A DNA stretch of 54,968 nucleotides. Source: a virus. The position numbers were made by a program, and so were the translations under genes. The stretch covers positions 1-54,968 of IMG/VR virus record IMGVR_UViG_3300020201_000026, one strand, 5' to 3'. Shown piece by piece: positions 1 through 11,796 of the stretch (positions are counted from its first letter, which is position 1; every line of letters starts with the position of its first letter). Under the pieces are notes generated by a model. That model did no database searches. It was not told the origin of the DNA and saw only the letters and a program-made list of their open reading frames with translations.

Positions 1-32
1 CGCGTTTTTTTTGTTATTTGTCCTTTTTTCAT
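1..32 (-). CDS. 5' end of a gene cut by the window edge
   Basis: Reading the minus strand from 32, an ATG opens a frame that begins M-K-K-G-Q-I-T-K-K-T and runs off the window. The same residues occur at the start of the 100-aa protein at 4584-4886 (M-T-K-S-K-K-G-Q-I-T-K-K-T). It is preceded by the left-arm leader (ATATTTTATTAA, then CCCTTTAAAC, then A-rich), as for the other minus-strand genes. This is therefore the start of a paralogue and shows that the left arm continues beyond this window. Function unknown. Confidence 0.6.
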   Translation of the reverse strand, partial: MKKGQITKKT

Positions 33-61
33 TTGTTTGGTTTAAAGGGTTAATAAAATAT

Positions 62-517
62 CTATGAAAGATACGGGTTTACGAACAAGCTACTAAAAGT
101 AACATATGACCCGTTTTCTAACCTAAACACGACTATATCGTCTTTTACAGTTAAAAATGTCGCTTTCATTTCAACAATTTTATTCCACACGCTGTCAATC
201 ATCTCAAGCGTAGGAAAATACTTGAAAGACAACAAGTGCTTTTGTCCGTTTTGTTCGCACAAGTCCCATTCAACATCGTATTTGTGGGCATGTTGAATCT
301 TCAACACTTCCCACGAATCGCTGTGTGCCTTGTCGGTCATTCCTCTGGTGTATCTTCCAAACGGAATCAAAACTTGGGTTATTGTGTTTGCCTTAGTGTT
401 GTCATAATTTATTTCAATGACCCCATAAGGTTTTTTGTAGTGAAGTCCTCTAATGGTTATTTTTGGACAGGTTCTTTCTCCGTCCAACACCCATTTTGAA
501 CTTAATATGTTTGTCAT
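62..517 (-). CDS. Hypothetical protein, 151 aa
   Basis: I do not recognise this protein. It is a soluble-looking 151-aa polypeptide with alternating beta-type segments and no signal peptide or membrane segment. The start at 517 is supported by the left-arm leader (ATTTAAACCAATTAAAAA before ATG). The gap upstream holds a pseudoknot (542-568) and two strong hairpins, so translation or mRNA stability may be controlled by structure. The stop codon lies about 30 bp from the truncated gene at the window edge. Probably an early accessory protein, judged by position only. Confidence 0.75.
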   Translation of the reverse strand: MTNILSSKWVLDGERTCPKITIRGLHYKKPYGVIEINYDNTKANTITQVLIPFGRYTRGMTDKAHSDSWEVLKIQHAHKYDVEWDLCEQNGQKHLLSFKYFPTLEMIDSVWNKIVEMKATFLTVKDDIVVFRLENGSYVTFSSLFVNPYLS

Positions 518-541
518 TTTTTAATTGGTTTAAATGTAAAT

Positions 542-568
542 AAGCAGTTTACACTCTTGCTTAGGAGT
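542..568 (-). ncRNA. Pseudoknot element, copy 3 (leader of the 151-aa gene)
   Basis: On the minus strand ACTC (568-565) pairs with GAGT (556-553) around a TAAGCA loop. AAGCA of that loop can pair with TGCTT (546-542), giving an H-type pseudoknot. The loop and TGCTT are identical to the two longer copies at 8795-8821 and 9134-9160, while stem 1 differs (ACTC/GAGT against AGTCC/GGACT), a compensatory change. The closing pair is a C-A mismatch here. It lies 24 nt before the ATG of the downstream gene. Confidence 0.5.
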
Positions 569-569
569 T

Positions 570-637
570 GTTTTAAACCTCTTTATAAAAGCGGTTTAAA
601 ACGTAATAGGTGAGGACAATACTATACTACCTATTAC
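570..637 (-). other. Two strong hairpins between the 111-aa and 151-aa genes
   Basis: 570-602 is a perfect 10-bp inverted repeat (GTTTTAAACC/GGTTTAAAAC, 13-nt loop). 603-637 is a perfect 9-bp inverted repeat (GTAATAGGT/ACCTATTAC) that overlaps the last codons of the upstream gene. They could stabilise the mRNA end or attenuate transcription. No long T run follows, so a classical terminator is not shown. Confidence 0.55.
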
Positions 638-962
638 TGTATTTTCTCCAATTGTATAGTTGTGGGGCAAGTAAGTGGTAGCAATATTTAGCCACCGCCC
701 AAGTGTCTTTTTTCCAATTGTATTTTTCTTTGTCAAGTAATCTTGAACAGAACTGAGCTACATAACAGGAGTTTTCCTCCCAATCAAAGCAGTTGTTTTC
801 AATCTGCCAAGCTATTAAATCATAGCTTGAATGTGCATACAACCACGCGTATTGTTGCCCGTGTTCAATGAACGCTAAGTGGACATTTAACTTTCCATTT
901 TCAAATCGCAATCGCCATTCATCACAAGGCACTGTTGTTAGGTTTTCTAATTCAATTATCAT
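627..962 (-). CDS. Hypothetical protein with W/C-rich repeats, 111 aa
   Basis: Not recognised. The C-terminal half contains roughly 20-residue imperfect repeats of the type F/Y-x-W-x(4-6)-A/Y-V-A-x-F/Y-C-x-x-L-L, unusually rich in Trp, Tyr and Cys. The segment N-G-K-L-N-V faintly resembles F-G-K-L-N-V in the 128-aa protein at 9747-10133, so the two might be distant relatives. The start at 962 follows a TTTTATTAA leader. No signal peptide or membrane segment is seen. Confidence 0.75.
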   Translation of the reverse strand: MIIELENLTTVPCDEWRLRFENGKLNVHLAFIEHGQQYAWLYAHSSYDLIAWQIENNCFDWEENSCYVAQFCSRLLDKEKYNWKKDTWAVAKYCYHLLAPQLYNWRKYSNR

Positions 963-993
963 GTTTTTGTTTTTTGGGTTAAAAATTAATAAA

Positions 994-1021
994 ATAGGGC
1001 TTACTTAAAAGCAAACCCTAT
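994..1021 (-). terminator. Hairpin with U-rich tail after the helicase gene
   Basis: On the minus strand ATAGGG pairs with CCCTAT and the stem extends to 12 pairs (two of them G-U) around a TTTA loop. It is followed directly by TTTTATTAA. It begins three bases after the helicase stop. The shape is that of an intrinsic terminator or attenuator, and the tail merges with the leader of the next gene. A close relative sits at 3929-3951. Confidence 0.6.
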
Positions 1022-1024
1022 CAG

Positions 1025-3844
1025 TTATCCTAACATTGCCTGACGAAGCATCACTGCTAAATCAGATTCAGACTCTGTTTCGTCTTTTCTGTCTTCAATT
1101 AGTTGGTTAAGCAACCTGACAGCTTGCACGTGAAATACATACATACTCAAAGAGCTATCAAACTCCTTTAACACGTCTTCAAGGGCTTCACAAAGAAGGC
1201 TTTGTTTTGCGGTTAAAGAGCGGTAGTCTATCTCATCAAGATATGCGTTTATCTCACCAATGGAGTGTTCAAACTCTTGGCAATAGTAGAAGTCTAACGC
1301 CATAGTTTTTAAACTCTCCTTTTCTGACTCAGCAATATCCCTTTGGTCAGTCTTTCTCCAGTAAAAGGCATCTTTTTCTTGTGCTATGTACTTATACACA
1401 TCAGCACTTAACAAAGAATTGTACTCCACTGTAAAAGAGTCAATTAGTTCTTCAACAGACAACTTGAAATCTACTTTTACGCAGGCTTTGTAGCTGTTTA
1501 TCACTAATCTTTCTTTTTCTATTTCCTCCTGCTTTTTTTCATTAGCGACATAGTCGTAATACAGCTGAGATAACTCAGTGTGAGACAGAACACCTTGTCC
1601 TTTATAACAATAAAAGACAACAACCCCTCCTAATTCTAAAGGAAGAGTGAGAAAGTTAGACAAAGAACTAACTGCAAGCAATATCCTTTCTGCTGAGTAT
1701 GACACAGAACTACCTTTGTAGCTGTCTGGTAGTATCTCGTTAACAAAGGAGTAGTGCTTTTTAATATCCTCAATAGATTTCTCTAAAGATTCAATTATCA
1801 GCTCTTTTTGTGATTCTACACTGGCAAAAGTAGGCACAGTTTTAATAACTAATACCACTTTATCTTCTCCTAACAATTCAAGTTTGGTATTAACCACTTT
1901 GATTTGGGATTGATAGTTAGGTAAATAGATACTGCTCACTGCTTTTGCGTGAATCTCCTCTGTTGTTAAAGGAGTAGAAATCCTCATTTCAGCGTTGCCC
2001 ATTGCATATACCGTAACAGTTTCACTATCAGCGTTAAACACTCTTTCTTTAGTGAATAAAGAAGGGTCAAGCTTGTAAACAAGCGCAACTACTGCCTCGT
2101 TAAAATACGTAACGTTAGTAAGAAAAGTAGCTCTTCCAATACTTGTTACTGTACCTGTTGTGTAGGAGAAATAACTCCCTTCAGAAGCAGCCGACACTTT
2201 CGTATCAAATGCTACCCTGTATGCTTTACAGCCTTTAGCTGCAACCACAACAACGGAACACAATTGCTCAGTTACTTGCTGAGTGTCTGTCATATACCCT
2301 AATTGGCTTAGAATAATAGACAGCTTTCTGTATCCCTCAAGGGCTTCTTGCTCCGCCATATAAAAAGTCATTGACTCTTTTGCTTGGCGTACTTCTTTGT
2401 TGTTCTTTTTAGCCACGATGCTGTCGTACAACTTTATATTGGCGTAAGAAGTAGACACAAACTTTGAAAAAAACTTGTTAGTTTTATCTTCGTCTGCTTT
2501 TTTGTCTATGACTGTTCCAAATTTAGTGTACGCCTCAATGGCAAGAAACTTTGCAACTTCTTTGGCGATGCCAAGTTCCATTGCATAATAGAGAATTAGA
2601 GCTTGGTTATACTCTAACATCGTCAATAGAGGAGCAATCCTTTTACCTTTTACAGTAAAACTATTGTTGCTTTCTATTACGTCATTTGCACGAAGCTCTT
2701 CAAGAACCTCGTTGTACTCCATTTGGTTATATGGAGTTATCAGATTTTCGTTATCTACACCTTGTGATAAAGTGTTAACAACAAACTCTCTTGCGTCCAA
2801 CAAGTCAATGGCTCTTAATGGATACTGTTGACGAGAATCGTAAGAACCTATAAGAGTGTATTTGTAAGGCATAGAACCTTGTTCAAGTTGCATTCTTCCA
2901 ATACGCCCAGCAGCTTGCGCCACCTCAGCTTTTGAAACGCTGTAAGTAGTCAATTGCTTGACTCCTTTAACGTTTACCATATGTCGTATTTGACCTAAGT
3001 CAATCACAGACTTTATCCATTTAGGATACGTTAAGCCTGTACGACCTATGTTAGTTGCAATGATAACAGCTTGTCCTTCTTTATGCTGGAGATAAGCCAT
3101 ACGGTCTTTACTGTCCATTTCACCGTGCATAAGATACACAGTTACTTTAGATGAAGCCTTAGTCGCATATGCTTCAACAATAGCTTGTACTTCAGCTATC
3201 TCCTTCTTTCCAGGACAGATAACTATGAAGTTGTACCCTTCTTCAAGTCTTGTATTGACAGTTGAAGTTAGGTTTTGAGAAGTTATCACACTCCCAAACA
3301 CAGGCGAGCCTTCTACACTGAAGCTTGTAGTAGTAGCTTCCACTACATTACAGTTTAGATAAGAAGCAAACATTGTACCTTGCACAGTCGCAGACATAAT
3401 CAAGACTTTACAGCCTAATTCTCTTGCTTTGTACAAGTTGATAATAGTGTTAAGCTCTAATTCGTGAGCTTCATCTATTACCACTAAAGTAGATGACATA
3501 TCCTCTTTGCCTAATTTAGACGTGAGGATTCCTTCGGTCATATACACAACAGAAGCATTAGCATTGCTGCTTGTACCTCTTCCTGTGATATGCCCTATCA
3601 TATCGGGTTGTCCACAGCCTTCAATAGCTGTAGCAGAGTTGCTTTCTGCTTGGCTAATGCGTGGCTGCGAGACATACACTTTGCTTATACCCTCTACGGC
3701 AGTCAGCAAGTGCAGTGGCAAGTATATGGTCTTACCTGTCCCTGTAGGACTTGTAAGAACACATCTGCCAACAGTGTTGAGCTGAGAGGCAATGCTCTCG
3801 GCATAACGAGCTATAGGCAGCTCTTTAAACCATTTTTTCTCCAT
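1025..3844 (-). CDS. DEAH-box (SF2) helicase, HrpA/HrpB-like core with long C-terminus
   Basis: An NTP-dependent helicase of the DEAH/RHA class, which in cells mostly acts on RNA. Visible motifs: I S-P-T-G-T-G-K-T (32-39), Ia Q-P-R (60-62), II D-E-A-H (124-127), III S-A-T (151-153), V A-T-N-I-G-R-T-G (263-270) and VI Q-A-A-G-R-I-G-R (310-317). The remaining 620 or so residues are not recognised; they are longer than, and visibly unlike, the usual HrpB tail. The gene is by far the largest of the left arm and lies among structured RNAs, so RNA is an attractive but unproven substrate; DNA replication or transcription is equally possible. The start at 3844 is preceded by AACCTTTAAAAACATAAAACA, the shared leader. 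Confidence 0.88.
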   Translation of the reverse strand: MEKKWFKELPIARYAESIASQLNTVGRCVLTSPTGTGKTIYLPLHLLTAVEGISKVYVSQPRISQAESNSATAIEGCGQPDMIGHITGRGTSSNANASVVYMTEGILTSKLGKEDMSSTLVVIDEAHELELNTIINLYKARELGCKVLIMSATVQGTMFASYLNCNVVEATTTSFSVEGSPVFGSVITSQNLTSTVNTRLEEGYNFIVICPGKKEIAEVQAIVEAYATKASSKVTVYLMHGEMDSKDRMAYLQHKEGQAVIIATNIGRTGLTYPKWIKSVIDLGQIRHMVNVKGVKQLTTYSVSKAEVAQAAGRIGRMQLEQGSMPYKYTLIGSYDSRQQYPLRAIDLLDAREFVVNTLSQGVDNENLITPYNQMEYNEVLEELRANDVIESNNSFTVKGKRIAPLLTMLEYNQALILYYAMELGIAKEVAKFLAIEAYTKFGTVIDKKADEDKTNKFFSKFVSTSYANIKLYDSIVAKKNNKEVRQAKESMTFYMAEQEALEGYRKLSIILSQLGYMTDTQQVTEQLCSVVVVAAKGCKAYRVAFDTKVSAASEGSYFSYTTGTVTSIGRATFLTNVTYFNEAVVALVYKLDPSLFTKERVFNADSETVTVYAMGNAEMRISTPLTTEEIHAKAVSSIYLPNYQSQIKVVNTKLELLGEDKVVLVIKTVPTFASVESQKELIIESLEKSIEDIKKHYSFVNEILPDSYKGSSVSYSAERILLAVSSLSNFLTLPLELGGVVVFYCYKGQGVLSHTELSQLYYDYVANEKKQEEIEKERLVINSYKACVKVDFKLSVEELIDSFTVEYNSLLSADVYKYIAQEKDAFYWRKTDQRDIAESEKESLKTMALDFYYCQEFEHSIGEINAYLDEIDYRSLTAKQSLLCEALEDVLKEFDSSLSMYVFHVQAVRLLNQLIEDRKDETESESDLAVMLRQAMLG

Positions 3845-3867
3845 TGTTTTATGTTTTTAAAGGTTTG

Positions 3868-3919
3868 TGAATAAGATTGGATTTGAACCAATTCTCCATA
3901 GGAGCAACCTTGCTTATTC
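3868..3919 (-). ncRNA. tRNA-like structure (acceptor stem and T-arm, no normal D or anticodon arm)
   Basis: On the minus strand GAATAAG (3919-3913) pairs perfectly with CTTATTC (3875-3869), followed by a discriminator A. The T-arm is canonical: ATTGG, loop TTCAAAT, CCAAT. Only 21 nt separate acceptor stem and T-arm instead of about 42; they contain one small hairpin, CTCC-TAT-GGAG. No CCA is encoded, as for the complete tRNA at 11709. It lies just before the helicase start, inside its leader. It is either a tRNA shrunken by deletion or a functional tRNA mimic processed by RNase P. Confidence 0.6.
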
Positions 3920-3928
3920 AATAAAAGT

Positions 3929-3951
3929 AGGGGCTACAAGAAGCAACCCCT
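3929..3951 (-). terminator. Hairpin after the Csx20-like gene
   Basis: On the minus strand AGGGG pairs with CCCCT, extended through G-U pairs to nine pairs with a TTCTT loop, followed by ACTTTTATT. It starts five bases after the stop at 3957. It resembles the hairpin at 994-1021. Two pairs are G-U only when read on the minus strand, matching the gene direction. Confidence 0.55.
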
Positions 3952-3956
3952 TATAA

Positions 3957-4379
3957 CTAAAACATCTCTCTCCACTGTACGTGTTGAAAGACCGTTGTTT
4001 TGGTAACACTCCCGTCGGGGTTTACCAGCTCAACGGACTTTCTTTCGGTGGTTGACTGAATGCACACAAGAGAGGTATGTGCGTTTTTGTAGTGGGCATA
4101 CAAGTTAGCCCACATTGTCAGGGTAGGCTCACCTGTGCAATAAAAGTGAGTTGCCTCTTCCATTATTGCTTCTGAGACTATCCTCAGAGCAAGCAACTGT
4201 ATTTCTTCTAAAGTTGCTGTTGCTGAAATGGCTGACATTTGAGCTTGCAACTCAGGGTCTACCTCTTTCAAGGTAACAATTGAGTCTTCGTGGTCTTTGC
4301 CAAATTGCGAGTTAAATCCTTCAACTTGAGACTCTGTCAAAACGTGGCTAAACGCGACAAATAACTTCTTGTTTTTCAT
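3957..4379 (-). CDS. Csx20-like CARF-fold protein, putative anti-type III CRISPR factor
   Basis: 140 aa. It starts K-L-F-V-A-F-S-H-V-L-T-E-S-Q (5-18), with a central Y-C-T-G-E (80-84), S-T-T-E-R-K-S-V-E (109-117), D-G-S-V (122-125) and V-F-Q-H-V-Q-W-R-E (130-138). This pattern (hydrophobic strand then S/N-H-x-L-T-x-x-Q, and a tail of S-T-T-x-R then D-G-S-V then F-x-H-V-x-x-R) is what I recall for the Csx20 family of small CARF-like proteins, which bind or degrade cyclic oligoadenylate messengers of type III CRISPR systems. A phage copy would quench that signal, as AcrIII-1 does. The family call rests on remembered motifs; the activity is inferred. A diverged paralogue is at 9175-9606. Confidence 0.6.
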   Translation of the reverse strand: MKNKKLFVAFSHVLTESQVEGFNSQFGKDHEDSIVTLKEVDPELQAQMSAISATATLEEIQLLALRIVSEAIMEEATHFYCTGEPTLTMWANLYAHYKNAHTSLVCIQSTTERKSVELVNPDGSVTKTTVFQHVQWREMF

Positions 4380-4430
4380 ACTTTTATTTTTAAAGGTTTT
4401 AGCAACGATGCACCTTTATCCATTTGTTTC

Positions 4431-4516
4431 GCACACCCGTCCTGTGTGCTACATCTACCTCGTAGATGAGTTTATAAAGGGTTAGATACAACCTTTATAA
4501 ACTGACTTTGCAAAGT
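4431..4516 (-). ncRNA. Four consecutive hairpins in the leader of the Csx20-like gene
   Basis: Read on plus: GCACAC/GTGTGC with 7-nt loop (4431-4449), CATCTAC/GTAGATG with 3-nt loop (4452-4468), a perfect 12-bp AGTTTATAAAGG/CCTTTATAAACT with 11-nt loop (4469-4503), and the palindrome ACTTTGCAAAGT (4505-4516). They are almost back to back, which suggests one folded RNA rather than chance. The 204-bp gap has no open frame worth reporting. Strand is assigned from the flanking genes. Confidence 0.5.
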
Positions 4517-4549
4517 TAGTGAAATAACTTCGCATTTGCAAACAAATTA

Positions 4550-4580
4550 AAAAGCCTTCCAATTAAATCGGAAGGCTTTT
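4550..4580 (-). terminator. Intrinsic terminator after the 100-aa gene
   Basis: A perfect 11-bp stem (AAAAGCCTTCC/GGAAGGCTTTT, 9-nt loop) lies three bases after the stop at 4584, with a T run when read on the minus strand. Because A and T runs flank both sides it could work in both directions. It shares its loop and upper stem style with the terminator at 9712-9737. Confidence 0.85.
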
Positions 4581-4583
4581 GGG

Positions 4584-4886
4584 TTAAAATGTTGCTAAGT
4601 AAGCTCTCCTTGCCACAGATTCATTCAAGTTTAACCATACGAGGTACTCCTCGTTGGTCATGTCTTGAATGAAGATATATTTTATGCAACTTCTTGCCCC
4701 ACGAGAGCCATAATACGCTTCTTTTACTTCACTTGTGTCTTGTAGCCAATGGCTAAGGGGAGTCTCCTTAGATGTGGAGCAATTAAGCTCCAATAAATCA
4801 CTGAGATACAATTTACCTATTGACCCACTTCTGCGAATTGGGTAATTTGTTTTTTTTGTTATTTGCCCTTTTTTTGACTTTGTCAT
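4584..4886 (-). CDS. Hypothetical protein, 100 aa
   Basis: Not recognised. The N-terminus is basic (Lys/Arg-rich over the first 20 residues) and is shared with the truncated gene at the left window edge, which suggests a small gene family with a common N-terminal tag. The rest is mixed alpha/beta with no membrane segment. The start is preceded by TTTTTTATTAA and two ATTTAAAC boxes. A strong terminator follows. Confidence 0.7.
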   Translation of the reverse strand: MTKSKKGQITKKTNYPIRRSGSIGKLYLSDLLELNCSTSKETPLSHWLQDTSEVKEAYYGSRGARSCIKYIFIQDMTNEEYLVWLNLNESVARRAYLATF

Positions 4887-4936
4887 ACGTTTAAATTGTT
4901 TAAATTGTTAATAAAAAACAGTACGTTTAAAAAACT

Positions 4937-4965
4937 CTTATCAACAGTATGTCTTGGTTGATAAG
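4937..4965 (-). other. Perfect 9-bp hairpin between the 170-aa and 100-aa genes
   Basis: CTTATCAAC pairs with GTTGATAAG around an 11-nt loop. On the minus strand it is followed after two bases by TTTTTT, so it can act as an intrinsic terminator behind the 170-aa gene. The leader of the next gene begins just after it. Confidence 0.6.
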
Positions 4966-4974
4966 AATTTTGAA

Positions 4975-5487
4975 TTATTTTGTGAGGAGAAAATGACTGT
5001 TTGCTTGTGTTTTGTATAACACAAAACAGTCATTTGCCGCTAAGGCTGTCCCTGAATTGCTCCCTTTCTCCTCAATAAAATATTGGCGAGTTTCAAAGAA
5101 CACAAGGGTATCTTCTCCTTCTTTTTGAAAGACTTGGAGCATTTGTCCTTTGTCAGTCCCTACTTGGTCTTCCCAATCCTTTCTACAAGATAAGCCCTCG
5201 TAGATATGTTGGTTTATGTGATGAAACTCACACGCCATTGGCAGTGTGATTTCTTTTCTGTTTACCAAAAATGTCTCTGGATTGATTTCAAAGGACACCT
5301 TGTATTCGTATGGACTACCCTCCGAGTAGTCGTCCTTTGCAGAAATCTCATACGGCTCTGAGTTACTCGCAAACCCAATAACTAGTTCGTCGTGATAGCT
5401 TACACTTGCCATTAAGTGCTTGCCGCCCTCAATGAGGGTCTCGCCTGTTATGGCGTTTTTTATTAAAATTTCCGTGAAGTTTGACAT
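4975..5487 (-). CDS. Hypothetical protein, 170 aa
   Basis: Not recognised. The sequence alternates short beta-type segments with acidic turns and has no signal peptide, membrane segment or catalytic motif that I can name. The start at 5487 follows ATCCAAAAACA. Its leader is unusual in carrying about seven copies of TAAACCC (5498-5545) where the other left-arm genes have the TTTTATTAA/CCTTTAAAC leader. Confidence 0.75.
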   Translation of the reverse strand: MSNFTEILIKNAITGETLIEGGKHLMASVSYHDELVIGFASNSEPYEISAKDDYSEGSPYEYKVSFEINPETFLVNRKEITLPMACEFHHINQHIYEGLSCRKDWEDQVGTDKGQMLQVFQKEGEDTLVFFETRQYFIEEKGSNSGTALAANDCFVLYKTQANSHFLLTK

Positions 5488-5497
5488 TGTTTTTGGA

Positions 5498-5545
5498 TTT
5501 AGGGTTTAGGGTTTAGGGTTTAGGGTTTAGGGTTTAGGGTTTAGG
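5498..5545. repeat. Tandem (TTTAGGG)6.9 repeat
   Basis: Six full copies and one six-base partial copy of TTTAGGG without any mismatch, 48 bp in all. The unit equals the plant-type telomere repeat, but the setting is a phage intergenic region 10 bp upstream of an ATG. Its minus-strand transcript, (UAAACCC)n, begins the leader of the 170-aa gene. A perfect array suggests slippage and possible copy-number variation. Confidence 0.95.
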
Positions 5546-5554
5546 CTACGATTA

Positions 5555-5593
5555 AGAAAAAGGCTCTTTAATTTAATTGTAGAACCCTTTTCT
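5555..5593 (-). terminator. Imperfect hairpin with T-rich end after the 123-aa gene
   Basis: On the minus strand AGAAAAGG pairs with CCTTTTTCT (one bulge) and the stem continues with U-A and U-G pairs toward an AT-rich loop. The T-rich 3' arm makes it terminator-like. The telomere-like array follows immediately. Confidence 0.45.
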
Positions 5594-5610
5594 AATTTAA
5601 TTTTAGCGCA

Positions 5611-5982
5611 CTATACTATTGAAAACCTGCTGATGTACAGGTTTTCTTCTTGGTCTTGGTCTTCGTCTTCAAGAACCCATTCGTGGGCTATGGTTTTGAT
5701 GCGTGGGAATCTTGCGATTCTTCCACACTCAACTCCAAAAACGTACAACTCAATAGTGCATTGAGCTGTCAAGTCTACTCTCAACCCACCATATTGGACG
5801 GCATACGCCCAGTTTATATTTGTTTCTAACAGAAACAAGGCAACCTCATATTGCACTTGTTCTGTGATTGGTGTGAACTTGTTAATCCCTCCATAAATGG
5901 AGTTTTTTAACTGTTCTACCATTTCTTCCTTTTCTTCTTGGTCAGCAGAGTTGTAATTTCTGCTGAATTCATAATTGTCCAT
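5611..5982 (-). CDS. Hypothetical protein, 123 aa, paralogue of the 9747-10133 product
   Basis: Not recognised. The core E-V-A-L-F-L-L-E-x(4)-W-A-Y-A-V-Q-Y-G-G-L-R-V followed by V-x-C/L-G-x-I and a R/K-F-P motif aligns with the 128-aa protein at 9747-10133 (E-I-A-F-C-L-L-K, W-A-Y-A-V-Q-F-G-K-L-N-V, K-F-P), so the two are paralogues. The C-terminus is acidic (about ten Asp/Glu). The start has the TTTTATTAAACC leader. No membrane segment. Confidence 0.75.
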   Translation of the reverse strand: MDNYEFSRNYNSADQEEKEEMVEQLKNSIYGGINKFTPITEQVQYEVALFLLETNINWAYAVQYGGLRVDLTAQCTIELYVFGVECGRIARFPRIKTIAHEWVLEDEDQDQEENLYISRFSIV

Positions 5983-6013
5983 AGTTTTTTGTTTTGTTTA
6001 ATGGTTTAATAAA

Positions 6014-6041
6014 ACAGGACTTACATCTTACGACTGCCTGT
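6014..6041 (-). other. Intergenic hairpin of the ACAGG/CCTGT family
   Basis: On the minus strand ACAGG and CCTGT flank an 18-nt loop containing GTAAGATGTAAGT, then TTTTATTAA. The same 28-nt block recurs at 6709-6736 and 7879-7906 with two or three changes. It begins shortly after a stop codon each time, so it is a repeated gene-junction module. The 5-bp stem alone is weak; conservation of the loop suggests that the loop matters. Confidence 0.55.
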
Positions 6042-6050
6042 TGTTAGTTT

Positions 6051-6680
6051 TTAGATAGACTTCAGCATTTCTGCGAGTTTCTCTAACGTTTGAAGTCTTT
6101 CCGATACTACGGATTGAGCAGCGTAGATGACGGATTTCAACGCACTTGGCAGGGAGGTTACGGCATGAGGGGTCATGTCATAGTCCCCGAATAAAACACC
6201 AAGAGCAACCTCGTAAGGGAGCTTTGTAAAGTCTTCCCCTCCAAAACCGTTAAAGATGTTAGCCAAAGATACTCGCTCCATTTCTTCTCCATTGATTTTT
6301 GCAGAGGTTACTATTTCCCCTGAAACTATCCTTTCAGCAACCGTTTTGCAAACGAATGCAAAAAGGTTGAGTTCACCTCCATAACAATCACTGTCGTCTG
6401 CCAAATGGTTTTCAATAGCAACATTATTAATGGTTATTGTTGCTACTTCTACTACGCTGTACTTTTCCCCCCAAAAACTTGCTTGTGCGAGACTTGCAAG
6501 CATGGGTTGTCCGTTAGGGTTGAATAACCCCTCTATAATAGTTTGCGACAAAACTACATCACTGTTTATTGCCGCTTGTGTCTTGGTCTTTGCCATTAAA
6601 ACAAAAGCTGTTGCTTCTGCTTCGGTGGGGAAGAAGTACTCATTTGTTTTTTGAGTACGTTGGTTTTTGATAGTGAACAT
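6051..6680 (-). CDS. Hypothetical protein, 209 aa, tandem paralogue A
   Basis: Not recognised. It shares about half of its residues with the adjacent 206-aa product: N-terminus M-F-x-I-K-N-x-R then K-T-N-E-Y-F-F, the central L-A-D-D-S and F-x-N-x-F-G-x-E-D, P-Y-x-V-A-x-G-V-L-F-G-D-Y, and the C-terminus R-L-Q-T-L-E-x-L-A-x-M-L-K-S-I. The C-terminal helix ends in a coiled-coil-like stretch. The pair arose by tandem duplication including the junction hairpin. Leader TTTTATTAACC present. Confidence 0.8.
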   Translation of the reverse strand: MFTIKNQRTQKTNEYFFPTEAEATAFVLMAKTKTQAAINSDVVLSQTIIEGLFNPNGQPMLASLAQASFWGEKYSVVEVATITINNVAIENHLADDSDCYGGELNLFAFVCKTVAERIVSGEIVTSAKINGEEMERVSLANIFNGFGGEDFTKLPYEVALGVLFGDYDMTPHAVTSLPSALKSVIYAAQSVVSERLQTLEKLAEMLKSI

Positions 6681-6708
6681 TTTTTTACTTGTTTAAAAGG
6701 TTAATAAA

Positions 6709-6736
6709 ACAGGACTTACATCTTGCGACTGCCTGT
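6709..6736 (-). other. Intergenic hairpin of the ACAGG/CCTGT family
   Basis: ACAGG/CCTGT on the minus strand with loop CAGTCGCAAGATGTAAGT, followed by TTTTATTAA. It differs from 6014-6041 at one base in the 28-nt block. It lies between the two tandem paralogues and begins three bases after a stop codon. Confidence 0.55.
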
Positions 6737-6739
6737 GTG

Positions 6740-7360
6740 TTAAATAGATTTTAGCATTTTTGCTAAATCTTCTAACGTTTGAAGTCTTTGCGATACTACT
6801 CTTTGAGCGGCGTAAAAGATTGATTCCAATGCGCTTTTCAATGCCATTGCTGGGTGAGATTTTGTTTTGTAATCTCCAAACAAAACCCCACAGGCAACGC
6901 TGTAAGGAAGCTTTGTGGGGTCTTCCTCCCCAAAGTCGTTAAAGATACTTATGAGCGAAACCCGCTCTTTTTCCTCTCCGTTCACTTGAACGGAAATGAC
7001 ACTCTCCCCCAATATTATCATTTCTTGAACTTTTTTTGAAATAAAATCAGAGAGCTTTCCCCCCAAAAATTCGCCACTGTCGTCCGCCAAGTCGTTGTCA
7101 ATGGCAACTCCATTGATAAGCACCTTTGCACTTTCAATGACTTCGTATTTTTGCTCCAAAAACGAAGCTTTTTCAAGGAACGCCGACATTGGCTTTCCAT
7201 TAGGGTGGAACACCCCTTGCACTATTTCACTCACGTCCCCTCTGTCAATGACAGATTGTGTTTTTTCTTTTGCCATTACGAGAAAAGCGGTAGCTTCTTC
7301 GGCAGTTGCAAAAAAATACTCGTTGGTCTTTCCTGACCGTTTGTTTTTTATACTAAACAT
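6740..7360 (-). CDS. Hypothetical protein, 206 aa, tandem paralogue B
   Basis: Not recognised. Paralogue of the 209-aa protein downstream; the two are alignable end to end with only small gaps. No signal peptide, no membrane segment, no named catalytic motif. The leader before 7360 is GCTATTTTATTAAGCCTTTTAAACAAAA-type. It is the first gene after the 548-bp structured gap, so its 5' leader, or an independent RNA, occupies that gap. Confidence 0.8.
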   Translation of the reverse strand: MFSIKNKRSGKTNEYFFATAEEATAFLVMAKEKTQSVIDRGDVSEIVQGVFHPNGKPMSAFLEKASFLEQKYEVIESAKVLINGVAIDNDLADDSGEFLGGKLSDFISKKVQEMIILGESVISVQVNGEEKERVSLISIFNDFGEEDPTKLPYSVACGVLFGDYKTKSHPAMALKSALESIFYAAQRVVSQRLQTLEDLAKMLKSI

Positions 7361-7444
7361 AGTGTTTTTTTGTTTAAAAGGCTTAATAAAATAGCACGTT
7401 TATCTTAAACGTACAAATAAACACTAAAACCACGAGCAATCTTG

Positions 7445-7488
7445 GCTCTCTGGTTGCAACACCAAACTCACACACGGTGAGGAACTAT
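7445..7488 (-). repeat. 44-nt dispersed repeat, copy 1
   Basis: Identical to 8571-8614 at 43 of 44 positions; the single difference (A/C) lies in a hairpin loop. It contains the 5-bp hairpin CTCAC/GTGAG and the palindrome GTTGCAAC, which could pair in trans with its second copy. No coding frame is shared, so conservation is at the RNA or DNA level. Confidence 0.8.
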
Positions 7489-7878
7489 GTGTGGTCTTAG
7501 GGTTTAAGGTAGGTTTGAGCCTATAACTTTCTTGCTGTTACACAAGCCTGCTCAAACAGGATTAAGTTTTGCTAAACTTACAAAATAACATTGGACAACT
7601 TTCATTTAGCTAAATGAAGGCTTATGTTGTCCCAATGCCTCTTATCGGTCAATTACAAAATGATAGATTCTAATTCTTGACCTTTTACAGTCCCCCGTTC
7701 ATTACTCGGGCTATTTCGGAGAATAGCAAAAAACAGACGAGGCTTATGAAGCATTTTCGTGTCTGTCTTACTCCTTACTCAGTTCTAACGTATCTATCAC
7801 AGTTAGAACATATATGCACACCTGTCTTACAGGATTCAACGCTTGCATAATGCGTTATTTATTTGTTTATGAGATAAA

Positions 7879-7906
7879 ACAGGACTTACATCTTGCGAAT
7901 GCCTGT
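7879..7906 (-). other. Intergenic hairpin of the ACAGG/CCTGT family
   Basis: Third copy of the junction module (see 6014 and 6709): ACAGG/CCTGT with loop CATTCGCAAGATGTAAGT, then TTTTAT. It directly follows the stop codon of the 174-aa gene and forms the 5' border of the 548-bp structured gap. Confidence 0.55.
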
Positions 7907-7908
7907 TG

Positions 7909-8433
7909 TTACTTGATTTGGTGGGTTTTACACCACCCTGATTTTTTTATTGCCAAAAGGCGTAAGTAATCGGAAGAGTAGGGGTTGTCATATCCTGACG
8001 ACCACTGGTCGTCATACCCTGAGGCCCAATGAGAGTTCCTCGTGAAAGAGAAACCCAATGCCAAACTCTTTAGAATCTTTAAATGTTCCTCTCTGTCAAA
8101 AGAGGTTATTACCTGTAAGCGGTCGCAATGCAGTGAGATTTCAGCCTCCAATTTGCTGGTGCAGGAGCTTCCTTTCCAGCTATGACCCCAGCTAATCATG
8201 CCACTCCATTTTTTAAATCGTTCCGCCCATTTCTTGCAGAACGGTTCCCAGCCAGTGGCTTTGGTCTTCCCAGAAACACAAACAGTCGTCCCCGACGATA
8301 GGTTGTACGTAATGGTAACCTTGTACCGCTCTTTGTTGCGGTATAAAGTTGCAATATGATATTCAATGTACGAGATTGAATTTCGTACATTGACAGTCGC
8401 TACGGGCGTTGCAAATAATTGGATTGCTATCAT
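7909..8433 (-). CDS. Hypothetical protein, 174 aa
   Basis: Not recognised. The protein is rich in Trp, Ser, Lys and aromatic residues. Near the C-terminus a short repeat, (W)-x-S-G-Y-D-x-x-Y/W, occurs two to three times (H-W-A-S-G-Y-D, W-S-S-G-Y-D, Y-S-S-D-Y). The start at 8433 follows A-rich AGAACAAAAA. Its leader is a 400-nt structured region. The Trp/Ser-rich composition would fit a small beta-rich binding protein, but nothing proves it. Confidence 0.65.
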   Translation of the reverse strand: MIAIQLFATPVATVNVRNSISYIEYHIATLYRNKERYKVTITYNLSSGTTVCVSGKTKATGWEPFCKKWAERFKKWSGMISWGHSWKGSSCTSKLEAEISLHCDRLQVITSFDREEHLKILKSLALGFSFTRNSHWASGYDDQWSSGYDNPYSSDYLRLLAIKKSGWCKTHQIK

Positions 8434-8439
8434 TTTTTG

Positions 8440-8703
8440 TTCTGCTTACTCAATGCAGAAACACTCTGTCTTTGTCCCGAACGGGAAACAGGTGTTAGCA
8501 GTTTCTCGTAAATTCTACGAGGAAGATTTAGAGTTTTCTCTCTTTTGTTATCTACCGTACAATAATCACAGCTCTCTGGTTGCAACACCAAACTCACACC
8601 CGGTGAGGAACTATACTATACACTGCAAAAATGCAACATCACACCTAAGCCGAAGCTCTCCCTTTAGATTTTTCAGGGATTAAGGTGCCAACCTCCTAAG
8701 AGG
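8440..8703 (-). ncRNA. Structured leader of the 174-aa gene
   Basis: The gap 8434-8720 has no convincing gene. Helices: TTCTGC/GCAGAA (8440-8460), CTGT..CCC/GGG..ACAG (8466-8491), CTCGTA/TACGAG (8505-8521), the 44-nt repeat (8571-8614), a three-way junction (8642-8687) and CCTC/GAGG (8692-8703). In the junction CACCT/AGGTG encloses a CCCT/AGGG hairpin and AGC-UUCG-GCU. The UUCG tetraloop exists only on the minus strand, so the RNA reads with the gene. Confidence 0.5.
8571..8614 (-). repeat. 44-nt dispersed repeat, copy 2
   Basis: Second copy of the element at 7445-7488, 43 of 44 bases identical. Flanking sequences are unrelated, so it is a mobile or duplicated module and not part of a longer duplication. 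Loop of its hairpin reads CGGGT on the minus strand, against CGTGT in copy 1. Confidence 0.8.
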
Positions 8704-8720
8704 TATTTAAATACGTCTTT

Positions 8721-8821
8721 CTTGTTCTTTCACTGTCGCATTAACCCCCGTAGGAGAAAAGACGTTGCAACAGCGAGAGGTTTTTCCTCTATCAAAGCAG
8801 TTTATAGTCCTGCTTAGGACT
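8721..8821 (-). ncRNA. Pseudoknot RNA element, copy 1 (101 nt)
   Basis: Read on minus: pseudoknot (AGTCC/GGACT; loop AAGCA with TGCTT), hairpin AGAGG/CCTCT, then stem CTGTTGC/GCGACAG enclosing CTCC-UACG-GGGG, a UNCG-capped hairpin. Copy 2 at 9058-9160 keeps all helices while changing bases on both sides: CTTC-UACG-GAAG, and AGGGG/CCTCT with a G-U. The element lies between the stop of the 61-aa gene and the leader of the 174-aa gene. No known riboswitch or ribozyme class comes to mind. Confidence 0.65.
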
Positions 8822-8835
8822 TGCTCTTATCGGGG

Positions 8836-9021
8836 TTAATCCCAATAAGAGCTATGACCCCCTTTTCCATACGCTGCCATACGACAGCCGGGATTTCTTT
8901 TTATTGCAGCCCTTGAGGTCTTTGCAGGGCTTTTCTTTTTGGGACGACAAGCTTTTCTCCTGCCCATTGCTTGACGAGGGTGAAAGTCATTCTTGTCTTC
9001 CACAATCTCGTGGATTTTCAT
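8836..9021 (-). CDS. Small basic protein, 61 aa
   Basis: Not recognised. 61 aa with a strongly basic middle (R-R-K-A-C-R-P-K-K-K-S, then K-T-S-R-A-A-I-K-R), which suggests nucleic-acid binding. The ATG at 9021 has the leader AACCTTAAAACACAAG, like other left-arm genes, and this is the main reason to believe it. It sits between the two copies of the pseudoknot element, so it could bind or depend on that RNA. Composition differs from neighbours (many Gly, Arg and Lys). Confidence 0.5.
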   Translation of the reverse strand: MKIHEIVEDKNDFHPRQAMGRRKACRPKKKSPAKTSRAAIKRNPGCRMAAYGKGGHSSYWD

Positions 9022-9057
9022 GATGTCTTGTGTTTTAAGGTTAAATAATGCACTTTT

Positions 9058-9160
9058 CTTGTTCTTTCACTGTCGCATTAACTTCCGTAGAAGAAAAAGT
9101 GCTGCAACAATTAGAGGTTTATTTCCCCTATCAAAGCAGTTTATAGTCCTGCTTAGGACT
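9058..9160 (-). ncRNA. Pseudoknot RNA element, copy 2 (103 nt)
   Basis: About four fifths identical to 8721-8821. The pseudoknot (9134-9160) and the 3' end are unchanged, while the middle varies in ways that keep the pairing: CTTC-UACG-GAAG replaces CTCC-UACG-GGGG, and UUGUUGC/GCGACAG keeps its pairing with one more G-U. It begins 14 nt after the stop of the 143-aa gene and precedes the 61-aa gene by about 40 nt. Confidence 0.65.
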
Positions 9161-9174
9161 TTTGACGATTAATC

Positions 9175-9606
9175 CTACAGGGCTTTAACCCAGTACTCCA
9201 TTGAACTTAACCATGTAACACACATCATTGGACTAAGTTCCTCCGCCAGCGATGTCCAATCAGGGGCATACTGATTGTCCCCTTTTGTGGGGTAGCCCAG
9301 TTGGGCATACCCGTACAAATATGTCCACATTTGAAGTCGCACGTCCTCAAAAGAGCAGTAAAGGTGGGTTGCCCCCACTTTTGTTGCCTCTTTCACGATT
9401 TCAAGAGCCAAAGCTTTCACTTGTACAAGTGCGAGCTTGGCACTTTCTGTGTCAAATCCTATCATGGTTGCAATTTCTGTACCCTCGTACCCTTGAGCAT
9501 CTTCATGGTGGCAACCATTGATATGGCTGCCGTACTGTAAGCGGAACATGTCCTCTTGGCGAGGGGTCAATACAGTTTGAGACGCTACGAATAATATCTT
9601 TTTCAT
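9175..9606 (-). CDS. Diverged Csx20-like paralogue, 143 aa
   Basis: Aligns with the 140-aa protein at 3957-4379 over the N-terminal two thirds: L-F-V-A-x-x-x-V-L-T-x-x-Q near the start, L-A-L-x-I-V-x-E-A, A-T-H-x-Y-C and M-W-x-x-L-Y. The C-terminal S-T-T-x-R, D-G-S-V and F-x-H-V motifs are missing and the last 40 residues are unrelated. If the first protein is a cyclic oligoadenylate binder, this one may bind another ligand or act as a partner. Followed by a pseudoknot element, preceded by a GAAA-loop element. Confidence 0.7.
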   Translation of the reverse strand: MKKILFVASQTVLTPRQEDMFRLQYGSHINGCHHEDAQGYEGTEIATMIGFDTESAKLALVQVKALALEIVKEATKVGATHLYCSFEDVRLQMWTYLYGYAQLGYPTKGDNQYAPDWTSLAEELSPMMCVTWLSSMEYWVKAL

Positions 9607-9631
9607 ATTTTTATTTATTTAAGGTTTATTT

Positions 9632-9702
9632 TCTTGCGAACCACCGCTTGCTCTATGTTTCCATAGACTTGTGAGACTCTCGTATTCCGAAGAACTTAGA
9701 GG
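9632..9702 (-). ncRNA. GAAA-loop RNA element, copy 1
   Basis: Minus strand: hairpin GTTC-UUCG-GAAT, conserved GAGTCTCACAAG, hairpin TCTATG-GAAA-CATAGA (9652-9667), then conserved GCAAGCGGTGGTTCGCAAGA. Copy 2 at 10162-10232 has the same conserved blocks but other stem bases (GTCC/GGAT; GTTACT/AGTAAT). Paired changes plus a GNRA loop show selection for structure. It forms the leader of the 143-aa gene. Confidence 0.6.
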
Positions 9703-9711
9703 TAGTTGTAA

Positions 9712-9737
9712 AAGCCCCCCAGTTAATCGGAGGGCTT
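9712..9737 (-). terminator. Intrinsic terminator after the 128-aa gene
   Basis: Minus strand AAGCCCTCC pairs with GGGGGGCTT (one U-G), 8-nt loop, followed by TTTACAAC. It begins ten bases after the stop at 9747. The U-G pair would be a C-A mismatch on the other strand, so it serves minus-strand transcription. Similar in design to the terminator at 4550-4580. Confidence 0.75.
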
Positions 9738-9746
9738 GTTGTTACT

Positions 9747-10133
9747 TTATTTGAGGAAGAATGTGTTTTCTACTACTTCGTCGCCGAAGTAATCTCGTTC
9801 GTCCCCTGTGTAAGGGACGGTTTTAGAGGTACAACCAATTGACGTTGTAGGAAACTTAATGTCCCCTAAATCCACTCCGCAAGTTGACAGCGAAACTACT
9901 CCGTTCTTTCCTATATACACGTTCAATTTGCCGAATTGAACAGCATACGCCCATTCTGGCGACGCTTTCAATAGGCAAAACGCTATTTCCCACTTGATGT
10001 CGTAGGATATTATGTCAAAATGTCCGTTTGCCATTTTCAGCGATTTGGCAAGGCTTTTAGCCATCTTGCCTCTTTCTGTAACTGTGCCGTATACGAAACG
10101 GCTTGTGTATACGTCTTTTTTTGAAACTTTCAT
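9747..10133 (-). CDS. Hypothetical protein, 128 aa, paralogue of the 5611-5982 product
   Basis: Not recognised. Shares W-A-Y-A-V-Q-F-G-K-L-N-V and G-V-D-L-G-D-I-K-F-P with the 123-aa protein at 5611-5982. The N-terminus is basic, the C-terminus carries acidic residues. No membrane segment. The ATG at 10133 follows an AT-rich leader (AAACTCAATAAATAAATAAG) and the second GAAA-loop element. Confidence 0.75.
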   Translation of the reverse strand: MKVSKKDVYTSRFVYGTVTERGKMAKSLAKSLKMANGHFDIISYDIKWEIAFCLLKASPEWAYAVQFGKLNVYIGKNGVVSLSTCGVDLGDIKFPTTSIGCTSKTVPYTGDERDYFGDEVVENTFFLK

Positions 10134-10161
10134 AATACTTATTTATTTATTGAGTTTAATT

Positions 10162-10232
10162 TCTTGCGAACTACCGCTTGCATTACTTTTCAGTAACCTT
10201 GTGAGACTCCCATATCCTACTGGACTTAGGGG
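10162..10232 (-). ncRNA. GAAA-loop RNA element, copy 2
   Basis: Paralogue of 9632-9702. Hairpins GTCC-AGTA-GGAT (10214-10225) and GTTACT-GAAA-AGTAAT (10182-10197). The outer G-U pair of the latter is valid only on the minus strand. The blocks AGTCTCACAAG and GCAAGCGGTAGTTCGCAAGAA are kept. It is the leader of the 128-aa gene. Confidence 0.6.
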
Positions 10233-10293
10233 AAACCGATTGTATATGTACCTCAACGCCGAAATCCCAATGACGGATTCGTGTGAGAAACAA

Positions 10294-10389
10294 GAAATAG
10301 TTACATACTGTATGGGTATGTAGCTATTTCATTAGTTACGTGTACGGTTAAACACGTAACATATACCCTAAACTTTTAATTTAGGGTAT
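10294..10389 (-). other. Three consecutive long hairpins
   Basis: 10294-10330: 16-bp stem (outer GAAATAG/CTATTTC, inner TACATAC/GTATGTA, two T-G pairs) with 5-nt loop. 10335-10360: perfect 9-bp GTTACGTGT/ACACGTAAC. 10363-10389: perfect 10-bp ATACCCTAAA/TTTAGGGTAT with 7-nt loop. The set begins six bases after the stop of the 10395 gene. On plus the last hairpin has a T-rich tail (TGTTTTTATTTT), so it could also stop rightward transcripts. A role in protecting or ending the first left-arm transcript is likely. Confidence 0.6.
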
Positions 10390-10394
10390 TGTTT

Positions 10395-11018
10395 TTATTT
10401 TGGCACACTTGCCGTGTTTGCTAATTTAGCTTGTTCTTTTGCTAATTTAGCTTGTTCTTTTGCCTCATCTTTGGTTTTTTCTGTGTTGTTTTCTTTTGTA
10501 ACCGCAATAGGGGCAATAAAGCCTCCTATTGCCCAAAATAGGCTCTTTGATGACTTTTCTTGCCACACTGTGTTCTCCCGTACAGTTGCAAGTTGTTCGT
10601 GGTAGCTAATACCAACCTTCATTAATGAAGGAATAGCGTTAGCAATGTTCAAATACTTTGTACCTGAACTTGTTGTAACCAAAACGGTCTCCATGTCGCA
10701 TGTTACACCCTCTAATAGGGTAGCAACATTTTTGATTGAAACGTTGATAAGTTCGTTGCCTCTTGTGAAGCAACCAACCGTGAGTGAAAGTACTGCAACC
10801 GCAGTAAAATCACTCTTAACGAGCGCGTTGTTTGCAACCTCTATGGTAGCAATTGATAGTTTCTTTTCTATCAATTTTGTGTCATACGCATTGTCTACTT
10901 CACTGTGTGTGAAGTTAGATAAGACACTGCCTTCTAAGAGGTAGTGCCTTTTAATGGGTATGATAAACTCCGACGTGGCACGTAGTGCCAAATTAGAGGG
11001 TATTAATCTATCAACCAT
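10395..11018 (-). CDS. Hypothetical protein, 207 aa
   Basis: Not recognised. Starting at 11018 (M-V-D-R-L-I-P) gives 207 aa. A longer start at 11063 adds 15 residues rich in Arg, Cys, Gln and Pro that look non-coding, but it cannot be excluded. Neither start has the usual left-arm leader. The C-terminal 40 residues are charged and contain two copies of E-Q-A-K-L-A-K/N, encoded by a perfect 21-bp tandem repeat; a moderately hydrophobic stretch (S-L-F-W-A-I-G-G-F-I-A-P-I-A-V) precedes it. It is the first gene of the left arm next to the divergent centre, so probably the earliest expressed. Confidence 0.65.
   Translation of the reverse strand: MVDRLIPSNLALRATSEFIIPIKRHYLLEGSVLSNFTHSEVDNAYDTKLIEKKLSIATIEVANNALVKSDFTAVAVLSLTVGCFTRGNELINVSIKNVATLLEGVTCDMETVLVTTSSGTKYLNIANAIPSLMKVGISYHEQLATVRENTVWQEKSSKSLFWAIGGFIAPIAVTKENNTEKTKDEAKEQAKLAKEQAKLANTASVPK
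10420..10461. repeat. Perfect 21-bp tandem duplication
   Basis: GCTAATTTAGCTTGTTCTTT plus T, twice without mismatch, inside the 3' end of the 10395 gene. It encodes the duplicated E-Q-A-K-L-A segment. Likely a recent slippage product. Confidence 0.9.
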
Positions 11019-11668
11019 TGGTATAGGGCTATTTTGTAAACGGTTGCACGGTTGCAGTCGCATATAGCCAAAGGCAGGAGGGGTGAATAGACATCAGACT
11101 CAATACTCCTTCTTAAAAAAATATTTTTTTTGCTGGGGTCAGTTGTCATTTTGCCTTGTGTGTTAGTTTGCTGTGTGTTAGTTTTACTGTAGAGGGGGGT
11201 ATTTGAGGGGGTGTTGTTTTATGTTTTTCTTTGGGTGGTTTCTTTGGCTATGGTATTATAGTTATAAGCTCTATCAAGGGGCAAGCCCCTTAAAAAGTTG
11301 TTTTTGGAGTACCTGATCCAGTCCTTTTTTGGGGAGAGTGTAGTATCTTTTGTTTAATGTGGAGATAGACACGTTCCACTACAATATAAATAAGGGTATG
11401 CTTTTACTGCAAAATGTTTATGCGGATTATCAGCCAGAGCTTCGTATCAGAACCTTATGAAAGAGGATGCGAAGATGTTTATGCCTTTAGCACTGAAGGA
11501 TTACCGCAAGAGGGGAGTTTCAACCGCCCATTTTGTTGCCCTTTTATCTTAATACCTTTCGTTGCCAAAAGGTAACCGAGAATCTAAAAAAGAATCGTTA
11601 TATATATAACTTATTTTTGACATAAAAGGTTCAGTTATTTTGAAAATAAATTAAAAATATTTTTTATT
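11019..11668. other. Divergent intergenic region between the two arms
   Basis: About 650 bp separating leftward and rightward genes. It holds GC-poor tracts, an AAGGGG/CCCCTT hairpin with a 4-nt loop near 11276-11291, the repeated decamer ATGTTTATGC (near 11414 and 11473), a small frame (11414-11575) and an A+T-rich stretch (11590-11670). Such a place would suit promoters for both arms or an origin, but I see no clear consensus for either besides the rightward promoter at 11669. I found no TAnnTTTG box on the minus strand here. Confidence 0.4.
11414..11575 (+). CDS. Possible small protein, 53 aa
   Basis: ATG at 11414 opens a 53-codon frame ending in TAA. The product (M-F-M-R-I-I-S-Q-S-F then an acidic middle and a hydrophobic P-F-I-L-I-P-F-V end) matches nothing I know. 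The leader is TTTACTGCAAA. Codon use is compatible with the phage, but the frame is short and lies in the divergent region, so it may be chance. Confidence 0.25.
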   Translation: MFMRIISQSFVSEPYERGCEDVYAFSTEGLPQEGSFNRPFCCPFILIPFVAKR

Positions 11669-11700
11669 TTTGGTAGTATCGTTTTGTTGTGTTATATTTG
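11669..11700 (+). promoter_or_regulatory. Bacteroidota-type promoter for the tRNA and right arm
   Basis: TTTG at 11669-11672, a 20-nt spacer, and TATATTTG at 11693-11700. This matches the Bacteroides primary sigma consensus (TTTG, 17-23 nt, TAnnTTTG) at every fixed position. The predicted start, about seven bases on, falls at the first base of the tRNA. Transcription may continue into the rightward operon. Confidence 0.8.
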
Positions 11701-11708
11701 CACAACAA

Positions 11709-11781
11709 GTCCTTATAGCTTAACTGGAAAAGCGTTACCCTTCTAAGGTAAGGAGTACAAGTTCAAATCTTGTTAGGGACA
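11709..11781 (+). tRNA. tRNA-Arg (anticodon TCT)
   Basis: 73 nt with all parts: acceptor GTCCTTA/TAGGGAC, D-stem GCTT/AAGC with an 8-nt loop, anticodon stem TTACC/GGTAA with loop CTTCTAA, T-stem ACAAG/CTTGT with loop TTCAAAT, discriminator A. No CCA is encoded. It reads AGA, the dominant arginine codon in the phage genes, so it likely supports late protein synthesis. It sits directly after a promoter and 15 bp before the first right-arm gene. Confidence 0.95.
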
Positions 11782-11796
11782 CTAATAGATTATAAT

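Follow-up and report, generated by a model that had tools for sequence, protein, structure and literature searches.

The gene at positions 3957–4379 (minus strand) of a virus record from IMG/VR probably encodes a phage-borne, divergent ring nuclease of the Csx20 family, which would cleave cA4 and act as an anti-type III CRISPR protein. The window, that is the whole stretch of DNA that was analysed, is this record at its full length of 54,968 bases. The open reading frame has an ATG start and encodes 140 amino acids, and its candidacy comes from the NF040559 and PADLOC profiles, alignment and an AlphaFold2 (AF2) model. The four motifs on which the first-pass annotation had based its Csx20 proposal are all present, as SHVLT (residues 11–15), STTER (109–113), DGSV (122–125) and FQHVQWR (131–137). 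Among 18 aligned sequences, the near-invariant positions (at least 90% conserved) are H12, which is the motif-I histidine, R113, S115, D122, G123, K127, F131 and H133. The protein retains 8 out of 8 of these, as well as Q18 and V125, which are invariant across the 18. Its C-terminus reads HVQWREMF, where Csx20 has HVxFR.

The NCBIfam model CAS_Csx20 (NF040559) matches the protein at E 3.2e-10, over residues 6–138 and profile positions 1–123 of 124. Two PADLOC Csx20 models match it at E 3.8e-11 and 1.7e-9, so that both the NCBIfam and the PADLOC Csx20 models cover it end to end. No model for it was found in Pfam or PHROGs. A profile hidden Markov model (HMM) was also made from four Csx20 sequences of viral contigs and a fifth from a proven type III locus, none of them the 3957–4379 protein itself. 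The sole match of this HMM among the 502 open reading frames of the window is 3957–4379 (E 2.8e-19, about 64.5–64.9 bits). The Csx20 identity is thus borne out by full-length profiles, by relatives and by near-invariant residues. The NF040559 score of 40.4 bits lies under the NCBI equivalog cut-off of 70 bits and, judged by its sequence, the protein is therefore a divergent homologue in a phage branch of Csx20 rather than an equivalog.

Single-protein scans with the 3957–4379 protein gave no match at E 0.01 in phages and none in viral_contigs or genome_contigs; its relatives surfaced by relaxed E-value searches and by motif-pattern searches. The pattern searches with the C-terminal motifs returned 27 stretches, most of them encoding Csx20-like proteins, while L014, L018, L024 and L028 were taken as chance matches. 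Two close relatives are on viral contigs: L035 shares 54% identity with the protein along its entire length, and L036 about 61–66% outside its extra segments. The L036 contig (130 kb) carries a crAss-like capsid gene, while the L035 contig (37.8 kb) was searched for a crAss-like terminase and capsid and neither was found. The Csx20-like gene is therefore common to viral contigs that may not be close kin. The nearest annotated relative is the csx20 gene on a plasmid of Persicobacter psychrovividus, a member of the Bacteroidota (tblastn, E 6e-3, 99% of the query). RAMP genes and an adjoining csx2 effector accompany this csx20 in its type III locus, where a Cas10 palm domain was confirmed as well. 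When used as a query, the Persicobacter Csx20 had no match in genome_contigs. The identity of the 3957–4379 protein to Csx20 of CRISPR loci is about 26–28%.

In the tree, the clade of the window protein groups with the Csx20 set, apart from a more remote LNLTQH phage family (95/88), although several long branches leave the fine placement unsure. The LNLTQH set (L010, L012, L013, L015, L017, L019, L020, L022, L023, L026, L027, L029, L030 and L031) consists of small phage and plasmid proteins that start with (L)NLTQH and end with DG[ST]VxKxxxFxH, and that are hypothetical where annotated. Phage RM378 gene 2 and a gene on an Azotobacter plasmid (L012, at 3695–4090) are among its members. The alignments link Csx20 to these further proteins: in the mixed alignment, 16 out of 18 members match NF040559 at E <0.01, and an HMM made from LNLTQH proteins alone recovers the Csx20 proteins, so that the profile similarity is reciprocal. 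The sequences of this set suggest that it possibly comprises undescribed signal-degrading anti-defence proteins. Csx20-like genes, unannotated or labelled 'hypothetical', are likewise found in the large Fusobacterium phages JD-Fnp7 (L007), JD-Fnp6 (L008) and JD-Fnp4 (L011). NF040559 matches those of JD-Fnp7 and JD-Fnp6 at E 4e-11 and 7e-11, and all three are remote from 3957–4379.

The record is that of a crAss-like phage. Its terminase matches those of crAss-like phages and of phages of Bacteroides, Flavobacterium and Cellulophaga, with a best identity of about 27% across most of the terminase, and its capsid protein resembles the major head proteins of crAss-like phages. The gene at 3957–4379 is therefore encoded by a mobile element. 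These matches also suggest that the phage host is most likely a member of the Bacteroidota. No Cas10 palm domain was found on the record, nor on ten related viral contigs, several of which are fragments. PADLOC was applied to 14 further proteins from the first 14 kb and gave no credible cas gene among them, its hits being limited to weak cross-matches of helicase and nuclease models. The first-pass statement that there are no other cas genes in view therefore holds for these scans, and the possibility that 3957–4379 belongs to a type III CRISPR system carried by the phage is rejected, as no Cas10 was found on the record. This absence is expected of a phage anti-CRISPR, and it therefore counts against the name 'CRISPR-associated' rather than against homology.

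The AF2 model of the protein has a pLDDT of 92.4 and a pTM of 0.84. Along with its full-length alignment, near-invariant residues and length, the protein shares with Csx20 (NF040559) a predicted Rossmann-like core and C-terminal beta hairpin. Foldseek gave no significant match to this model in the PDB. VIA-align matched it to the Cap5 SAVED, Cam1 CARF, Csm6 CARF, AcrIII-2 SAVED and Cap4 SAVED domains at Z 5.9–6.5, spanning residues 1–140 or 2–140. Unrelated Rossmann folds reach the same level, with racemases at Z 6.8 across most of the core, so that the model is consistent with a CARF/SAVED fold but the comparison does not prove it by itself. Crn1, the reported best match of another Csx20 model, is absent from the VIA list, which excludes nothing. 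An unnamed viral model, A0A5Q2WBQ4, matches well (TM 0.76–0.82, E 2.2e-8).

When type III systems detect phage RNA, their Cas10 produces the second messenger cA4. We infer the ligand, the cleavage, the dimer and the anti-CRISPR role of the 3957–4379 protein. Two subunits would form a CARF-like dimer that binds cA4. H12, in the loop after strand 1, and the C-terminal hairpin (R113, D122-G123, K127, F131 and H133) would hold the cA4 ring and cut it to linear products. With cA4 gone, the effectors that depend on it (Csx1/Csm6 and others) would stay inactive, and the infected cell, probably of the Bacteroidota, would avoid shutdown. One cellular Csx20 has been shown to degrade cA4, and to act on cA3 when the enzyme is at high concentration, but not on cA6 (PMC12409355). 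Given this published activity and a phage that lacks Cas10, an anti-type III role through the removal of cyclic oligoadenylates is the best inference. The viral ring nucleases AcrIII-1 and AcrIII-2 serve as anti-CRISPRs (PMC12409355, PMC12751052), and by analogy an anti-CRISPR use would be the simplest reading of a lone ring nuclease in this phage, as the first-pass annotation had it. The well-studied type III system of Bacteroides fragilis signals with SAM-AMP and not with a cyclic oligoadenylate (PMC10600005). As a non-cyclic molecule, SAM-AMP is an unlikely substrate, and the enzyme would be useless against such a system.

An unrelated small phage protein with a chance resemblance to the Csx20 motifs can be set aside as extremely improbable. 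The sole point in its favour is the NF040559 score under the equivalog cut-off, whereas the best of 2000 shuffled 3957–4379 proteins reached 14.1 bits with the HMM that matches the real protein at E 2.8e-19, and full-length relatives bearing the same motifs are present on other viral contigs. This explanation is refuted by the profile and shuffle tests.

The first-pass annotation had left open whether cyclic oligoadenylates would be removed or sequestered. Binding without cleavage has precedents, as the related CARF protein Csx15 includes non-enzymatic members (PMC13148439) and phage sponges are known for other signals (PMC11722364). Such a sponge is nevertheless an improbable role for 3957–4379. 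The motif-I histidine, which is catalytic in Csx15 and required there for cleavage (PMC13148439), is kept, the Csx20 that was assayed is an active enzyme (PMC12409355), and the type III signal is abundant, for which reason sponging is thought ineffective (PMC13148439). Because this histidine is retained, removal is better supported than sequestration for the protein. Likewise, the low identity to Csx20 of CRISPR loci means that the ligand specificity could differ from theirs, and a homologue aimed at another nucleotide signal, such as the cA3 of CBASS or another defence messenger, has to be considered. The divergence of the sequence is in keeping with this, as is the cleavage of cA3 by cellular Csx20 at high enzyme concentration (PMC12409355). 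The nucleotide cA3 is a signal that CBASS also uses. A target other than cA4 is quite improbable, however, in light of the preference for cA4 of the sole characterised family member and of the Bacteroidota homologue that adjoins csx2 in a type III locus. Cleavage of cA4 against type III immunity is therefore the reading preferred here.

A diverged Csx20-like paralogue of 143 amino acids, absent from the first-pass annotation, is located at 9175–9606 (minus strand) and was recognised by its similarity to 3957–4379 and by an AF2 model. The two are 38% identical over query residues 4–98 (E 1.3e-9 in a genome search; E 4e-13 in a BLASTP pair). The paralogue starts with LFVASQTVLT where 3957–4379 has LFVAFSHVLT, and the motif-I histidine has been lost. 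It keeps the N-terminal core, while the C-terminal R/DG/K/F/H motif residues are gone, so that, judged by its sequence, none of the presumed catalytic residues is left. NF040559 does not match it. The AF2 model, made from a shallow alignment, is confident only for most of residues 1–103 and predicts no structure for the C-terminus. In the tree its branch is very long, at 6.4 changes per column. A search of five related contigs gave no counterpart of its own, the only match being the Csx20 of L036, and a frame-shifted remnant of the C-terminal motifs was sought by eye and not seen. The paralogue may be a duplicate in decay, or it may serve as a sponge or as a partner subunit; sequestration is at most conceivable for this copy. 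A two-part strategy, in which an active ring nuclease at 3957–4379 would be accompanied by a dead but folded 9175–9606 acting as a sponge, decoy or regulatory partner, is rather unlikely. No third Csx20 copy was found among the 502 open reading frames of the window with the Csx20 HMM.

Both genes lie in the left arm (1–11,700), a minus-strand block of mostly small genes around one DEAD-box helicase, for which no relative was found in viral_contigs. The leader of the Csx20-like gene (4380–4510, minus strand) has several hairpins predicted by RNA folding. The fold of 4377–4510 has an energy of -35.4 kcal/mol (z -4.08), and 0 out of 200 shuffles were as good. In L035, too, a strong hairpin lies in the leader (z -2.76), with no obvious sequence similarity to 4377–4510. 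A hairpin resembling an intrinsic terminator, with a stem of 14 pairs and a T-rich tail behind it, closes the upstream unit at 4550–4580 (minus strand), and the Csx20-like gene is therefore probably on its own transcript. A second terminator-like hairpin directly follows its stop codon at 3929–3951 (minus strand; 9-pair stem and T-rich tail); this one is weak, as shuffles average 1.5 such sites.

Repeats that are 63–98% alike are present in the intergenic gaps of the left arm, mostly in gene leaders. Copies are present at 965–1021, 5985–6041, 6680–6736, 7362–7418 and 7850–7906, and as the pairs 9605–9702 with 10135–10232, 8718–8822 with 9055–9161, and 7438–7488 with 8564–8614. Rfam found only the tRNA in the left arm and had no match to the repeats. 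The genes at 6051–6680 and 6740–7360 (minus strand) are tandem duplicates with 59% identity, and those at 5611–5982 and 9747–10133 (minus strand) are diverged paralogues with 34% identity over 77 residues. The latter gene adjoins the diverged Csx20 copy and shares its leader repeat. A short tandem TTTAGGG run is located between two left-arm genes at 5492–5548, and a tRNA-Arg (TCT) at 11709–11782 (plus strand) marks the switch from the minus-strand to the plus-strand gene block. These surroundings leave the verdict on 3957–4379 unchanged.

Csx20 (NF040559) is a cA4 ring nuclease of type III loci, whereas 3957–4379 is in a phage without Cas10. Phage-encoded Csx20 is already known, being present in four of 28,114 phage genomes (PMC12409355), and these cases have in common with 3957–4379 the family, the location on a phage genome and the proposed anti-CRISPR logic. 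AcrIII-1 (viral Crn2, DUF1874) and AcrIII-2 (a viral SAVED ring nuclease) are also virus-borne cA4 degraders that block type III immunity. AcrIII-1 differs in having a fold that is not of the CARF type (PMC12830947), and AcrIII-2 is a SAVED domain; neither is among the sequence relatives of 3957–4379. Csx15 is a relative within the CARF superfamily, with a catalytic or binding histidine in motif I as in 3957–4379. It belongs to a different subfamily, which is filament-forming, is sometimes a sponge and is not reported in phages.

The crAss-like phages are dominant in many gut communities. No description of a ring nuclease in a crAss-like phage was found in the partial body of literature that was searched. 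If the proposed activity is correct, the crAss-like phages would gain a concrete candidate counter-measure to type III cyclic-oligoadenylate signalling. It would also predict that cA4-type systems operate in the hosts of this phage group, in addition to the SAM-AMP type known from Bacteroides fragilis.
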